This document shows positions 7,334 through 37,460 of a DNA stretch of 45,482 nucleotides, in pieces. Position 1 is the stretch's first letter. Each line of letters starts with the position of its first letter. Made by a program: the position numbers and the translations under genes. The notes beneath the pieces were generated by a model. The model did not search any database, was not told where the DNA came from, and saw nothing but the letters and a program-made list of their open reading frames with translations. This DNA comes from an uncultured Candidatus Saccharimonas sp. Lineage in GTDB: Bacteria > Patescibacteriota > Saccharimonadia > Saccharimonadales > OMJO01. Where the stretch lies: contig CALRAM010000001.1 of assembly GCA_943353165.1 (NCBI GenBank), positions 1 to 45,482 of the forward strand, given 5' to 3'.

Positions 7334-8443
7334 ATGTCAAAAACTTTATTTACCAGCGAGTCAGTCTGTGCTGGGCATCCCGACAAAATTTGCGATGCAA
7401 TCAGCGATGCCTTGCTAGACGAAATACTAAGGCAGGACCCAAATGGACGTGGTGGGATCGAGGCTGTTGCTGGCGCAAACCAAGTTAGTTTATTTGGCGA
7501 GGTCAATACAACGGCAAAGCTGGACTATAAAAAAATTGTGTTTGGCCTGATAAAGAAATTTGGCTACACAAACCCAGATTGGGGTTTTTCGGCAGAGTCT
7601 GTATTTAGCAATTTTATCCACGAACAGTCACCAGAAATTTCCCAAGGTGTAGATGAAGATGGCGCTGGTGATCAAGGCATGATGTTTGGTTACGCTTGTA
7701 ACGATACGCCAGAACTAATGCCTATGCCGATAACTCTGGCACACTCGTTGACAAAGCGAATAGATGAAGCAAGGAAGAGTGGTGAATTGAAATGGTTGCG
7801 ACCTGACGGCAAAGCTCAGGTTACAATAGAGTACGAAGACGGCAAACCTACCAGCGTGGTCAAGGTGGTGGCCGCTGTAGCCCACAGCGAAGATACTAGT
7901 GCAGAGGATGTCAGAACAGGGATAATCCATAAAGTCATACAACCGATATTGGAAAAGTATAATTTTAAACTACCCGCAGATAAAGATATTGTCATAAATG
8001 GTACGGGGGCGTGGTACATCCCAGGTCCAGAAAGTGATGCTGGGCTGACCGGACGCAAGATAGTGGTTGATGGTTATGGTGGCTATGCCCGGGTGGGTGG
8101 TGGCGCATTTAGCGGCAAAGACCCTAGTAAAGTAGACCGTTCTGGCGCGTATGCTGCCCGATATATTGCCAAAAATATTGTAGCAGCGGGCTTGGCCGAC
8201 AGGTGCGAAGTAGGTCTGGCATATGTGATAGGTCAGCCAGAGCCCCTAATGCAGACAATTGAAACTTTTGGTACGGCTACCGTGTCCGAAACAGAGCTCT
8301 ACGCTTTCAAAGATAAATTGATAGACACATCCGTGAAAGGCATCATAAAAAAGCTAGACCTGCGACGACCAATTTATAGCCAAACCAGTGCATATGGGCA
8401 TTTTGGCAAGGCCGAGTTGCCTTGGGAAAAAGTAGTGGCATAG
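7334..8443 (+). CDS. metK: S-adenosylmethionine synthetase
   Basis: The 369-residue enzyme makes S-adenosylmethionine from methionine and ATP. Visible family motifs are SESVCAGHPDKICD at the N-terminus, GAGDQGMMFGYA in the first third, and GGGAFSGKDPSKVDRSG later. Length is slightly below E. coli MetK (384). The ATG at 7334 has the Shine-Dalgarno AGAAAGGA 8 nt upstream; the open frame from 7268 runs through the leader hairpin and is not used. Regulation is probably by the SAM-responsive leader. A strongly structured intergenic region follows the stop codon. Confidence 0.97.
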   Translation: MSKTLFTSESVCAGHPDKICDAISDALLDEILRQDPNGRGGIEAVAGANQVSLFGEVNTTAKLDYKKIVFGLIKKFGYTNPDWGFSAESVFSNFIHEQSPEISQGVDEDGAGDQGMMFGYACNDTPELMPMPITLAHSLTKRIDEARKSGELKWLRPDGKAQVTIEYEDGKPTSVVKVVAAVAHSEDTSAEDVRTGIIHKVIQPILEKYNFKLPADKDIVINGTGAWYIPGPESDAGLTGRKIVVDGYGGYARVGGGAFSGKDPSKVDRSGAYAARYIAKNIVAAGLADRCEVGLAYVIGQPEPLMQTIETFGTATVSETELYAFKDKLIDTSVKGIIKKLDLRRPIYSQTSAYGHFGKAELPWEKVVA

Positions 8444-8657: not shown

Positions 8658-8688
8658 TTGACAATATCACTTTACTTTGATAAAGTAA
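8658..8688 (+). promoter_or_regulatory. yerC promoter with overlapping palindromic operator
   Basis: TTGACA (8658-8663), 17 bp, then TAAAGT (8681-8686), 9 nt before the ATG. A perfect 17-bp palindrome, TTACTTT-gat-AAAGTAA (8672-8688), covers the -10 box. Its size and place suit a TrpR-like dimer repressing its own gene; that link is inference. Confidence 0.7.
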
Positions 8689-8695
8689 TTCCATT

Positions 8696-9025
8696 ATGAA
8701 AGAAAATATTGCCACAATTTGGGAATCTAAAACCGCCCAGCAGTTATCTAAGACTTTGGTTGGTATTGATGATGCCCAAACTATGGAGAAGTTCCTTAGA
8801 GACGTTATGACTGAAAAAGAAATAATTGAGGTTAGTTCCCGTCTGGAAGCAGCTCGCATGCTCAAGGCAGGTATCAAATACAGCGACATAATTGAAAAGA
8901 CAAAACTTAGTAGTCGAACAGTTGCCCGTATTAGTGATTGGATGCAAAACGGTAGCGGTGGCTACGAAGCAGTTCTGGGTCAAATTAGTGACCATAGCCA
9001 TATATCGCCAGCCAGTGCTGACTAA
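8696..9025 (+). CDS. yerC: YerC/YecD family TrpR-like regulator
   Basis: The 109-residue all-helical protein matches the TrpR-related YerC/YecD family: FLRDVMTEKEI at 33-43, EVSSRLEAARMLKAG at 45-59, and a helix-turn-helix from YSDIIEKTKLSSRTVARISDW at about 62-82. In Firmicutes, YerC-type proteins have been linked to control of histidine genes. Here the gene is followed by hisI and a hisG-like gene, which supports the same link. Its promoter carries a perfect palindrome over the -10, suggesting autorepression. A strong terminator separates it from hisI. Transcription probably begins at the start codon. Confidence 0.88.
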   Translation: MKENIATIWESKTAQQLSKTLVGIDDAQTMEKFLRDVMTEKEIIEVSSRLEAARMLKAGIKYSDIIEKTKLSSRTVARISDWMQNGSGGYEAVLGQISDHSHISPASAD

Positions 9026-9051
9026 CTAGTTATTCGTTTGAAATAGCAGAT

Positions 9052-9077
9052 CGCCAGCACATCGCTGGCGTTTTTTT
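9052..9077 (+). terminator. Intrinsic terminator between yerC and hisI
   Basis: Stem CGCCAGC/GCTGGCG with loop ACATC, followed by seven T. It would stop most transcripts from the yerC promoter 30 nt before hisI, so hisI needs read-through, attenuation or its own weak promoter (TATTAAT near 9084). Confidence 0.9.
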
Positions 9078-9107
9078 GCGCGATATTAATTTGAAAGGAG
9101 AAATACG

Positions 9108-9476
9108 ATGAATATTAGAAAATTTGAATTTGAAGCTGTAGATTTTACAAAACTACTGTCGGCCACGGGAGAACAATTAGTTCCAGCCGTGGTAGTTGAT
9201 AGTGCTGAAATGGCAACTGATGGCCTGGCCTCAGTTCTAATGGTTGGTTTTATGAACCGACTAGCCCTAGAAGCTACTATCGACAGCGGTAATGTCACTT
9301 TTTACTCCCGCACCAGCCAAGCGCTGTGGGAAAAGGGAACAACTAGTGGCAACTATCTAAAAGTGAGAAATATTTTTACAGATTGTGATAATGACAGTCT
9401 ATTAATCGATGCGGAACCCTTGGGACCGACGTGTTGCCAAGGTACGCAGTCATGCTTTGAGGAGGAAATACAATGA
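9108..9476 (+). CDS. hisI: Phosphoribosyl-AMP cyclohydrolase (HisI-like)
   Basis: The 122-residue protein has the HisI core: [38 protein letters not shown], then DCDNDS and CCQGTQSCF. The zinc cysteines fall at 93, 109 and 116 and the magnesium-site aspartates at 92, 94 and 96. Two usual residues are changed: TSGH is TSGN (82), and the CH pair is CC (109-110). HisI normally opens the adenine ring of phosphoribosyl-AMP, the third step of histidine synthesis. No hisE, hisA, hisH or hisF is in the window. It has a good AAAGGAG Shine-Dalgarno and overlaps the next gene by 4 nt. Confidence 0.85.
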
Positions 9477-10144
9477 GTAATTTCGAAAAGGTATTGTTGG
9501 AGTCGGCCGATACAATTTATTTGCCGAACAGATACCTAGAACCCTTTATGGATGCGGTTGGCAATATAACAAATATTGAGATACCTGACCTGAAAGAGAG
9601 AAAACTTAGCGTTAAATCCAATGGTCAGACATTTCGCTGGGTACGTGGACGAGATGTGGCTAAGATTGTTGCTAGTGTCCAAGCAGCTCAACCAGAGAAA
9701 AGAGTCGTTGGCCTAAGCGGTAGCGAATGGTGCGATGAATACATGTTGGGCGAGTTGACTGGTCGGGTAACTGCAGATCGAAGGATAGAGTACTACAACA
9801 TACCGAGCGCCAAACTTATGGGGCGAGTTGCCATCATCGCTCCACCTAGCCTAGACGCTGATCAAATGCGAGACAAGATTAGGCCTGGGCGGGAACAGCT
9901 TGTTCCTGTGGTTACTGTCTATCCAAACCTGGCTACAGCATCCAAATCCAACCTTTCTATAACAACTAGCCTGGAGTTTACTCTTAATGGCAGTGTGGAA
10001 ACGGTATCAGATGATCTAGGTATGTTAGCTTTAGATTTAGTCTGCACAGGTGGTACCGTTATACAAAATAACTTTACCATACTAGCAGAATTGCAAGAGG
10101 TATATCCGGCTATTGTAGTGGCGGCTGGCACTAATACTGTTTAG
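9473..10144 (+). CDS. Divergent ATP phosphoribosyltransferase-like protein (HisG-like)
   Basis: The C-terminal two thirds of this 223-residue protein follow His[15 protein letters not shown], then [15 protein letters not shown], then [20 protein letters not shown], which corresponds to the PRPP loop D-x-V-xx-G-x-T-L. The N-terminal part lacks the usual IPKGRL start and shows [15 protein letters not shown] where HisG has its VGITGKD-like segment. Spacing between the conserved Glu and the Asp of the PRPP loop is altered. HisG condenses ATP with PRPP; together with HisI this would act on a purine ribonucleotide. It is coupled to hisI through an ATGA overlap and ends convergently into sodC. Confidence 0.7.
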
Positions 10145-10662
10145 GATTTTTGGATTTTGCCGCAGGCTAGGCGGGGGCCACCGCTGTGGCCAGAACCAGT
10201 TTCGCCCGGTGTGTGTGGATCTTCGTTAGCATGCACCATGATTGAAGTGCCTTCTGCTGGCTGTAAAATGGAAACTGGACCGTCAGACAGTGTTATGCGA
10301 GTGGAAATGGTTTCTAGTTCGCCGTGTCCTTTTGCGTCTATGACTATGTTTGGCAAATCGCCAGCGTGGTAGCCGTGGTTGGCATCTGGGTCGGTATTGC
10401 CGCTAGGGCCTGGGTCAAAGTGCCCGCCAGCACATTTGAAGCCTTCGCATTCGCAGTCTCCCTTTTCGTGTATATGAACAGCGTGTCGTCCTGGAATCAG
10501 AGTGGCGGGGTCGCCTTTTAGGGTCAATCGCAAGTGTACATATTTCCAGCCATCAACATCGTATTCTGTAAAAATGGCCAGTCCAGACACATTTGGGCCA
10601 GAAACTTCCGCCCTAGCTAGATTGGTGACTTTTTTGCTATCTGCATTTAGGCTAACTTTCAT
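10141..10662 (-). CDS. Cu/Zn superoxide dismutase family protein
   Basis: The 173-residue protein has the Cu/Zn SOD ligand order: HAVHIHEKGDC (two copper histidines and the first disulfide Cys), GGHFDP (bridging His), HGYHAGDLPN (zinc His and Asp), IMVHANEDPH (fourth copper His), and a C-terminal SGGPRLACG (second Cys, with the active-site Arg before it). There is no signal peptide; the protein starts MKVSLNADSKK, so it appears cytoplasmic, while most bacterial SodC are exported. An AAGGA Shine-Dalgarno supports the ATG. Its stop overlaps the stop of the hisG-like gene by 4 nt. Confidence 0.9.
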   Translation of the reverse strand: MKVSLNADSKKVTNLARAEVSGPNVSGLAIFTEYDVDGWKYVHLRLTLKGDPATLIPGRHAVHIHEKGDCECEGFKCAGGHFDPGPSGNTDPDANHGYHAGDLPNIVIDAKGHGELETISTRITLSDGPVSILQPAEGTSIMVHANEDPHTPGETGSGHSGGPRLACGKIQKS

Positions 10663-35544: not shown

Positions 35545-36798
35545 ATGTCCAAAATAATATCTGAACTTTTAGGAGAAGCCAAGGCAGACTATGCTGCCAA
35601 AATATTAAAAATGGAGAATATAATCGGGAAAGACAGCTTAGATATCAGGCTAGGTGCCGATATAATAGGTAAAATTAACATTAAAATACGAGCTCTGGGA
35701 CTAAATAGTACAGATTCTAGCGGCCCAGAAATTTACTTTTCGCTAATGTCGACTGTCCGAATGCATGACGATTTTCTGATGAGACATTTAGGCGAAAACA
35801 GCAACACCGATACTAGCACACTGTTGTCCAAAATTGTGATCTTGGTTAAAAAAATTCGAATGCCTCGAAATGTTTGGGTCATAAAACATAGCGCAGCCAA
35901 AAAATTATTAAAAAACCAGCCACCAAAACATTTGATGAAGTTATTGGGCTACAGGTCATTAGAATCGTTACTAAAAAGGGAATCTATGGGACTGGTTTTT
36001 GCTGGCATACAGTTCGCCGAGTCTGCTGCTTGGCATAAGAAATTTAAACAAAGCTATAGTTTATTGCAGCCATCTGATTTTGAATCCAGAAAAATAGATA
36101 TTAGCTATGCAGGTAATGCTAGGTGGCAAAAAGCAACTGCCGAATTTGTAAAATCTACCCGAAATAATATTATCAGCTCCAAGGAAATGGGTTCAATTGT
36201 TGTGCTACCTTTGCCTGCTACTAAGCTTCGGGGGTTGACTATATACACTCTTACTCTTTTAATCCAAACTGTCACCGAACTCCGAACTTTTAGTTCTTTT
36301 ATAAAACTACGACAAGTCCAGCCAAATTTTGGCGATATTGTCAAAAGTGCAGTTTTGTCTGATGAATTAGGCGGGTTATCAAATGGCGGCTCAGAATTGC
36401 ATTGGCGGATAATTCAGCGACATTTCGGAGCTATTTCTAATTTGGCACACCCTGATGTTTTTGAGCCCCACTTGCAACCAGAAGATTTACAGTGGCGTAA
36501 GGCTGAAAATATATTGATAAACATTGAGCCTGCCCTACAATTTTGGGAAAATATGGATTATGTAGGTTTAATTAAAGACGGGCAGACAGTTAGTTTTAAT
36601 ATTTTAGATGCCGCTACAAACTATATAAACGACAGGACTTATGGCAACCAGGTTTATGGTCATATGCAGGCGTCTTTGCGAAACGAACTTTATTCTCAGT
36701 ATTATAGTCATCCAATTCTAGAGTCTAGAATGTTATTAAGTTTAGAAAACGAGATGTCGGGTGATAATAATAATTTTTATAGATTGGTCACTGCATGA
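35545..36798 (+). CDS. Unknown conserved-looking protein, 417 residues
   Basis: I recognise no family. The protein looks mostly helical and soluble, with a basic middle (PRNVWVIKHSAAKKLLKNQ) and many aromatic residues toward the end (ALQFWENMDYVGLI, YGNQVYGHMQ, ELYSQYYSHP). There is no signal peptide, obvious catalytic motif or cysteine cluster. ATG 35545 is preferred over 35530 because TATGCT lies 10 nt upstream of it. It overlaps the following LOG-like gene by 4 nt (ATGA), so both act from one mRNA. Confidence 0.7.
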   Translation: MSKIISELLGEAKADYAAKILKMENIIGKDSLDIRLGADIIGKINIKIRALGLNSTDSSGPEIYFSLMSTVRMHDDFLMRHLGENSNTDTSTLLSKIVILVKKIRMPRNVWVIKHSAAKKLLKNQPPKHLMKLLGYRSLESLLKRESMGLVFAGIQFAESAAWHKKFKQSYSLLQPSDFESRKIDISYAGNARWQKATAEFVKSTRNNIISSKEMGSIVVLPLPATKLRGLTIYTLTLLIQTVTELRTFSSFIKLRQVQPNFGDIVKSAVLSDELGGLSNGGSELHWRIIQRHFGAISNLAHPDVFEPHLQPEDLQWRKAENILINIEPALQFWENMDYVGLIKDGQTVSFNILDAATNYINDRTYGNQVYGHMQASLRNELYSQYYSHPILESRMLLSLENEMSGDNNNFYRLVTA

Positions 36799-37460
36799 GC
36801 TATTTATTTAAACAGAAAGTAAATGAAAAAGAAGAAAACGAAGAAAACGAACTTCGTTTTACTATCTGCGTTTCTGGTGCTGCTGGCGGAGACACAGTAG
36901 AGGAATCTGATGATTTGGCAGAAGAACTGGGAAAAGCTATCGCAGAAAGTGGCCACATTCTGACGACTGGCGCAACTGTAGGGTTGCCATTGTACGCTGC
37001 TAAAGGCGCTACTTTGGCTGGCGGCATGAGCATAGGTTTTTCGCCAGCTGGTAGTCTGAGGGAACATCTTCGAAAGTACAGATTACCTTATGAAAATTTT
37101 GATTTCATAAATTTTACTGGGTTAAACTATGTTGGTCGTGATCTGTATTTAGTGCAGTCAAGTGATGCCGTCATTACTGTAGGAGGTCGTTTTGGAAGTT
37201 TGCATGAGTTTACTTCTGCACTAGAATCGCACAAACCTTGCGGTGTTCTGTTAGGGTCAGGAGGAACTGCCGATATCATACCAATGCTTATAGAAACTTT
37301 AGATCCGTCGTTCCAAAAATACGTTGTTTATAGTACCGATCCGACTGAGCTAGTCGAAAAGGTTTGTAAAATATTAGACGAAGAATACCAGGACATAAAA
37401 AAGCAATATAAAACTGGAGACAACTTTTGGTTTTCAGAAAGGGGCAAAAAAAGAGGCTAA
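36795..37460 (+). CDS. LOG/SLOG family Rossmann protein
   Basis: The 221-residue protein has a Rossmann-like fold of the LOG/TIGR00725 group: ICVSGAAGGDT near 24, LTTGATVGLPLYAAKGA, and VITVGGRFGSLHEFTSALE, where LOG enzymes have PGGxGTxxE. Classical LOG proteins release cytokinin bases from nucleotides; SLOG relatives bind or hydrolyse nucleotides, some in stress or defence pathways. The altered motif (GGRFGSLHE keeps the Glu) leaves activity open. It is co-translated with the unknown 417-residue protein, the best hint to that protein's role. Confidence 0.8.
   Translation: MSYLFKQKVNEKEENEENELRFTICVSGAAGGDTVEESDDLAEELGKAIAESGHILTTGATVGLPLYAAKGATLAGGMSIGFSPAGSLREHLRKYRLPYENFDFINFTGLNYVGRDLYLVQSSDAVITVGGRFGSLHEFTSALESHKPCGVLLGSGGTADIIPMLIETLDPSFQKYVVYSTDPTELVEKVCKILDEEYQDIKKQYKTGDNFWFSERGKKRG

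Follow-up and report, generated by a model that had tools for sequence, protein, structure and literature searches.

A HisR-type regulator and a hisI-hisG pair in a reduced Saccharibacteria genome: a putative remnant of a histidine operon

A small histidine-type module, yerC-hisI-hisG, was identified in a Saccharibacteria genome of 639 kb (~0.64 Mb; 96.5% complete, five contigs), within a 45,482-nt stretch of DNA that is referred to here as the window. The genes of the window appear unable to make histidine. With moderate confidence, we regard the module as what remains, in reduced form, of a his operon under HisR control, still expressible but a leftover and not a functioning pathway; that it both descends from such an operon and continues to be controlled by HisR is, taken jointly, highly probable. 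Our literature search turned up no earlier work on incomplete his modules of this kind in Saccharibacteria.

yerC (8696-9025), hisI (9108-9476) and hisG (9473-10144) are consecutive, intact open reading frames on the plus strand, and their products all have domain matches, which bears out the gene succession proposed in the initial annotation. The module is flanked by metK (7334-8443), which precedes yerC, and by a Cu/Zn superoxide dismutase gene (10141-10662), which is convergent with hisG and overlaps it by four bases. hisG starts within hisI, with an overlap of 4 nt (ATGA), and ribosome-binding sites are predicted from the sequence both for hisI (AAAGGAG, 9094-9100, plus strand) and, inside hisI, for hisG (AGGAGG, 9460-9465, plus strand). 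None of 2000 shuffled versions of the hisI-hisG stretch stayed open, and its GC content by codon position is that of the neighbouring genes.

YerC (109 aa) matches PF01371 with 51 bits and TIGR02531 with 53.9 bits, above the cut-off of 42.2, and its relatives in the PDB are the TrpR-like proteins 3g1c and 3frw. It is an orthologue of HisR, a histidine repressor of the TrpR family whose gene in Bacillus subtilis is yerC, and histidine-stimulated DNA binding has been measured for HisR of Ruminococcus gnavus (PMC9413887). A sigma-70-like promoter of yerC (TTGACA, 17 nt, TAAAGT; 8658-8686, plus strand), the best promoter-like match of the region (10/12), puts the predicted transcription start a few bases 5′ of the yerC ATG, giving a nearly leaderless mRNA, and the same promoter geometry precedes yerC at most other loci. 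The promoter spacer and the -10 element are covered by a predicted HisR operator, CACTTTACTTTGATAAAGTA (8668-8687, plus strand), which has 13 of the 14 specified bases of the HisR consensus cacTTTAnnnnnnTAAAgtg and one mismatch (PMC9413887). Only 0.03 operator-grade matches are expected by chance in the window, and the 12-base palindrome core has its sole perfect copy genome-wide at yerC. Since a HisR-type YerC has an operator over its own promoter, with the only perfect core in the genome, the module is probably histidine-regulated, HisR repressing it when histidine is plentiful. A TrpR-box-like palindrome, TAACTAGTTA (9023-9032), was rejected because the other yerC loci do not conserve it. 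The HisR regulons of Firmicutes and other Gram-positives share with the module a TrpR-family repressor, the operator consensus, autoregulation and his genes as targets, and the published account of such regulons, which makes no mention of Saccharibacteria, covers Firmicutes, Actinobacteria, Proteobacteria and a small number of further phyla (PMC9413887). Unlike in those known regulons (PMC9413887), the target in the window is a pathway-less fragment, and a conserved hairpin lies between hisR and its target.

This hairpin, CGCCAGC-ACATC-GCTGGCG followed by T7 (9052-9077, stem-loop 9052-9070, plus strand; terminator scan), ends 16 nt before the ribosome-binding site of hisI. A stem of the form CGCCAGC-n5-GCTGGCG with trailing T's lies 16-26 nt past the yerC stop in 19 of the 22 aligned yerC loci; its conservation spans at least six families, is independent of the next gene and includes covariation of the outer pairs. 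The stem (GCCAGC/GCTGGC) is nearly invariant in the window and at L066, L079, L080, L082, L098-L102, L105, L108, L111-L113, L116-L118, L120 and L180. In the ~716 kb of sequence that was examined, T-trailed stems of this kind occur only after yerC, as do all five stem matches in the Saccharibacteria-type genomes of the genome collection, four of which are named Saccharibacteria, and no known RNA family was found in Rfam for the hairpin at 9052-9077. Uniqueness of the stem to the yerC system was ruled out, as ordinary terminator-like copies occur in many gammaproteobacteria. The hairpin may be a terminator or attenuator-like, and the ratio of regulator to target is perhaps set there. The initial annotation had overlooked both this hairpin and the promoter with its HisR operator.

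Histidine biosynthesis requires roughly ten genes. As claimed in the initial annotation, no other his gene was found in the window, where HisB, HisC and HisH were among those looked for. Profile searches for HisD, HisA and HisF gave no match genome-wide, while the same models had matches in 13-14 of 14 control genomes, so a full his operon elsewhere in this genome was not encountered either. A dedicated HisE was not found in the genome, and the two PF01503 (PRA-PH-like) matches were rejected as HisE because the MazG family fits them better.

The product of the hisI-like gene (122 aa) covers the full PF01502 PRA-CH profile (1-74 of 74, 95 bits), reaches 105.7 bits against the NCBIfam equivalog, below its cut-off of 126, and is 62% identical in its core (78 residues) to Shigella HisIE (6j2l). 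The alignment confirms that all the Zn and Mg ligands (D92, C93, D94, D96, C109 and C116) are kept, as had been claimed. On the other hand, the proposed change of TSGH to TSGN had to be abandoned as an active-site change: Asn is the usual residue there, Shigella HisIE having TSGN, Medicago TSNN and all 11 HisI proteins of the order Asn. The change of CH to CC stands, Cys110 (codon TGC, 9435-9437, plus strand) being aligned with the catalytic His of cyclohydrolases, and this codon is at least two base changes away from any His codon. The replacement matters, since PR-AMP cyclohydrolase uses His110 as its general base; in Medicago HISN2, this role has been proposed for the corresponding His143, and no activity was detectable in the H143E variant (PMC8102479). 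Among the 11 HisI proteins of the order, this position is Cys in the window, Ser in G225, which is HisR-linked and has no HisA/F, and His in the other nine, including both HisA/F-bearing genomes. The window HisI belongs to the common fold family of Shigella HisIE, Medicago HISN2 and the enzyme of M. thermoautotrophicus (1zps), with the same Zn/Mg ligands and WxKGxTSGN substrate loop, but differs from these enzymes in having Cys for the general-base His, an N-terminal insertion and no HisE domain. The insertion is common to the HisI of the window, G010, G040, G046, G080 and G083, all of them genomes that lack HisA/F.

hisG encodes a divergent short-form protein of 223 aa whose Pfam match is marginal (PF01634, 27.0 bits, cut-off 25.5) and which stays below the cut-off of TIGR00070 (27.1 against 75.75 bits). 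A profile built from its relatives matched solved HisG structures with an E value of 7e-30, and the first 50 PDB fold matches of a predicted model were all ATP-PRT, short forms first (best E 1e-9); this model, from a three-sequence alignment with a pLDDT of 60, is adequate for the fold and inadequate for the active site. The PRPP loop DLVCTGGTV is kept, as had been noted before (D-x-V-x-[ST]-G-x-T; residues 188-195, DLVCTGGT), and so are the YPN motif and R58, the equivalent of Arg56 in a profile alignment of approximate mapping. The N-terminus is indeed unusual, with PNRY for PKG, but it is shared with three other families: throughout the clade of the window (G000), G010, G046 and G083, PNRY is accompanied by Gly at the equivalent of Cys115, and in G083 the Asp of the PRPP loop is lost too. 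The protein is recognisable as HisG, yet not an ordinary one, its usual N-terminal Lys-Gly being missing. The short forms of P. arcticus, A. baumannii and L. lactis resemble it in fold, PRPP loop, YPN motif and length, but at only ~16-20% identity and with the Lys-Gly and Cys115 that it has replaced. In the HisG tree, the window clade (support 100/99) is joined by HisG of G139, G029, G039, G030 and G225 (95/94). This link to the HisG of a complete operon, that of G139, suggests that the unusual HisG most likely descended from an ordinary histidine operon of the order.

We surveyed 393 genomes of the order, counting true HisI only, and found HisI in 11, HisG in 27, HisD in nine and HisA/F in two. 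HisG, HisI or HisD occurred in 29 of them, and only two of these 29 also had HisA/F. HisI and HisG were found together in nine of the 11 HisI genomes, against 0.76 expected (P = 4e-10, a value that ignores relatedness), and all nine HisD genomes also had HisG. The initial annotation had asked whether this pair travels alone; it does not strictly do so, but is often accompanied by HisD and hisS. G139 (Candidatus Saccharibacteria palsa_1325, PKXF01000002) has the HisR operator, yerC and hairpin as in the window and a related HisG, but, unlike the window, a complete operon, in which a hisG-hisE fusion, hisD, hisC, hisB, hisH and hisAF precede hisI. The arrangement hisG-hisD-hisI-hisS (G046, G083) reads like a G139-type operon minus its middle, and further arrangements are hisG-hisI-hisS (G010), hisI-hisS (G040, G080), yerC-hisG-hisD (G030, G151), yerC-hisIE-hisG-hisD-hisS (G225), yerC-hisG-SLOG (G296) and hisI plus hisG-hisE (G218, G296). 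This looks like repeated partial loss from a G139-type operon across the order. A decayed hisG 5′ of the lone hisI in G040 was looked for and not found. Between the window and G010, the third codon positions of hisI/hisG differ by 0.61-0.65 and the first and second by 0.35-0.49, an excess at third positions which indicates that purifying selection acted over most of the divergence of these genes and says little on the recent past.

Other loci of the order showed further combinations. G031 (97% complete) carries hisG-hisH-hisA-hisF-hisI-hisE immediately before a trigger-factor-like gene, without HisD (L017, 6079-9463), a set that would be expected to yield no more than AICAR and imidazole glycerol phosphate. 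At L067, L069, L070, L071, L075 and L077, orphan HisG-HisE-like fusions combine a degraded HisG N-terminus with a kept PRPP loop, and mostly precede hisS-tig-clpP. At L098, L099, L100, L116, L117, L118 and L120, the HisR operator, yerC and the hairpin are followed by genes for a ~220 aa protein and an AstE/aspartoacylase-like protein (PF24827), and such loci are likely to form a histidine-scavenging regulon in histidine auxotrophs. At L111, L114 and L180, the genes after yerC encode VanX/VanY-like peptidases, a DapF-like protein (GGEFCGNAARSA) or both, and a ~277 aa protein is encoded at the yerC loci L101 and L102, the latter adding an S66-like peptidase; a histidine racemase or dipeptide use is possible at such loci. 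SLOG cluster4 proteins (PF18306) adjoin HisG and/or yerC at L016, L064, L065, L079, L105 and L112, and the SLOG cluster4 gene of the window (36795-37457) lies 26 kb from the module, without a HisR site.

The favoured leftover reading could be summarised as follows. The ancestor would have been a fuller yerC-hisGE-hisD-hisC-hisB-hisH-hisAF-hisI operon, of a type that one relative or more has retained, and its remnant would be undergoing stepwise, ongoing loss, which is why we see in it a leftover and no longer a functioning pathway. Judging from the HisR literature, HisR with histidine bound would shut the yerC promoter; under histidine scarcity, transcription would proceed, and those transcripts that read through the hairpin would allow HisI and HisG to be made. 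HisG probably still binds PRPP, and HisI probably still binds metals and a nucleotide, although ring opening would be poor or nil without the general base; with HisE, HisA, HisF and HisD missing, there would be no histidine output. With the catalytic residue of HisI lost, the two genes give the impression of an inherited piece, worn out in part, from which no histidine can be made. Of the two readings offered in the initial annotation, the relic is better supported because the regulator and operator are of the histidine type, the HisG clade adjoins the HisG of a complete operon and the HisI catalytic residue is lost; action on another purine nucleotide is possible but less likely. Against a leftover count the intactness of the operator, of the two reading frames and of their ribosome-binding sites, the 62% identity of the HisI core to a proteobacterial enzyme and the codon-position pattern, as well as PNRY and G-x-x-G-x-E-W, which are conserved across families in HisG. 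A mere relic in a 0.64-Mb genome should decay quickly, and random loss is not an obvious source of the recurrent keeping of HisG, HisI and HisD over HisA/F.

These observations could also fit a new role, which we consider possible but unlikely: HisG and HisI would form a histidine-responsive unit of two enzymes, or of an enzyme and a binder, that makes or senses a non-histidine nucleotide derived from PRPP/ATP, the Cys110 HisI binding or converting another nucleotide. Such a unit would be in keeping with the recurrence of the pair in four families with common conserved HisG variant motifs, its non-random co-occurrence and purifying codon pattern, the conserved PRPP loop in most orphan HisG, and the occurrence of SLOG (nucleotide-ligand) genes next to HisG in G296, G129 and G051. 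However, its substrate is hypothetical, gene order and partners differ among the window, G010 and G046/G083, HisR control points to histidine, and the HisI of G010, G046 and G083 keep the His, so altered chemistry is not common to the pairs. That the PNRY/GxxGxEW HisG subfamily and HisI are a selected, histidine-controlled unit in several pathway-less Saccharibacteria families, making a product or signal other than histidine from PRPP and ATP (or a different nucleotide), seems rather unlikely as well.

It is improbable that the front half of the pathway is in use, with HisG, a borrowed MazG pyrophosphatase and HisI leading to ProFAR/AICAR-side products and the rest coming from the host or another route. 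Larger front halves do exist elsewhere (HisG-HisE-HisI in G218 and G296, and the HisD-less set of G031), and the window's genome encodes two MazG-family proteins, but MazG is not HisE, and phosphorylated intermediates are not known to be exchanged from cell to cell. His110 is moreover lost in the window, and H143E abolished the activity of the Medicago enzyme (PMC8102479). We find it very improbable that HisG is kept as a histidine-status sensor, rather than as a catalyst, in partnership with histidyl-tRNA synthetase or a HisZ-like protein. The usual partner of short-form HisG is HisZ, a paralogue of HisRS, and hisG or hisI lies immediately 5′ of hisS in many of the genomes that carry these genes; hisS is, however, non-adjacent in the window, and the rsmD-...-hisS-tig-clpP synteny is perhaps just an old operon site. 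Least probable of all is that the rest of the pathway is present but was missed through an assembly gap or unrecognised enzymes: the genome is 96.5% complete in five contigs and HisB, HisC and HisH were looked for in the window, but HisA, HisF and HisD are all absent although his genes usually cluster, and relatives have like absences. Judged from the sequences, a leftover, with its broken pathway and lost general base, is moderately favoured over a new role, for which the intact frames and conserved variant motifs speak.

In these tiny episymbionts, histidine repressor control is kept together with its operator and gene order, while nearly all carriers of his genes are without a complete pathway, and one HisR switch precedes very different target genes among relatives. 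HisR therefore offers a handle on how these auxotrophs get histidine, and the module is a case in which to ask if the incomplete pathways of reduced genomes are in decay or still at work. A repurposed pair, should it prove to be one, would put steps one and three of a textbook pathway to a new use.
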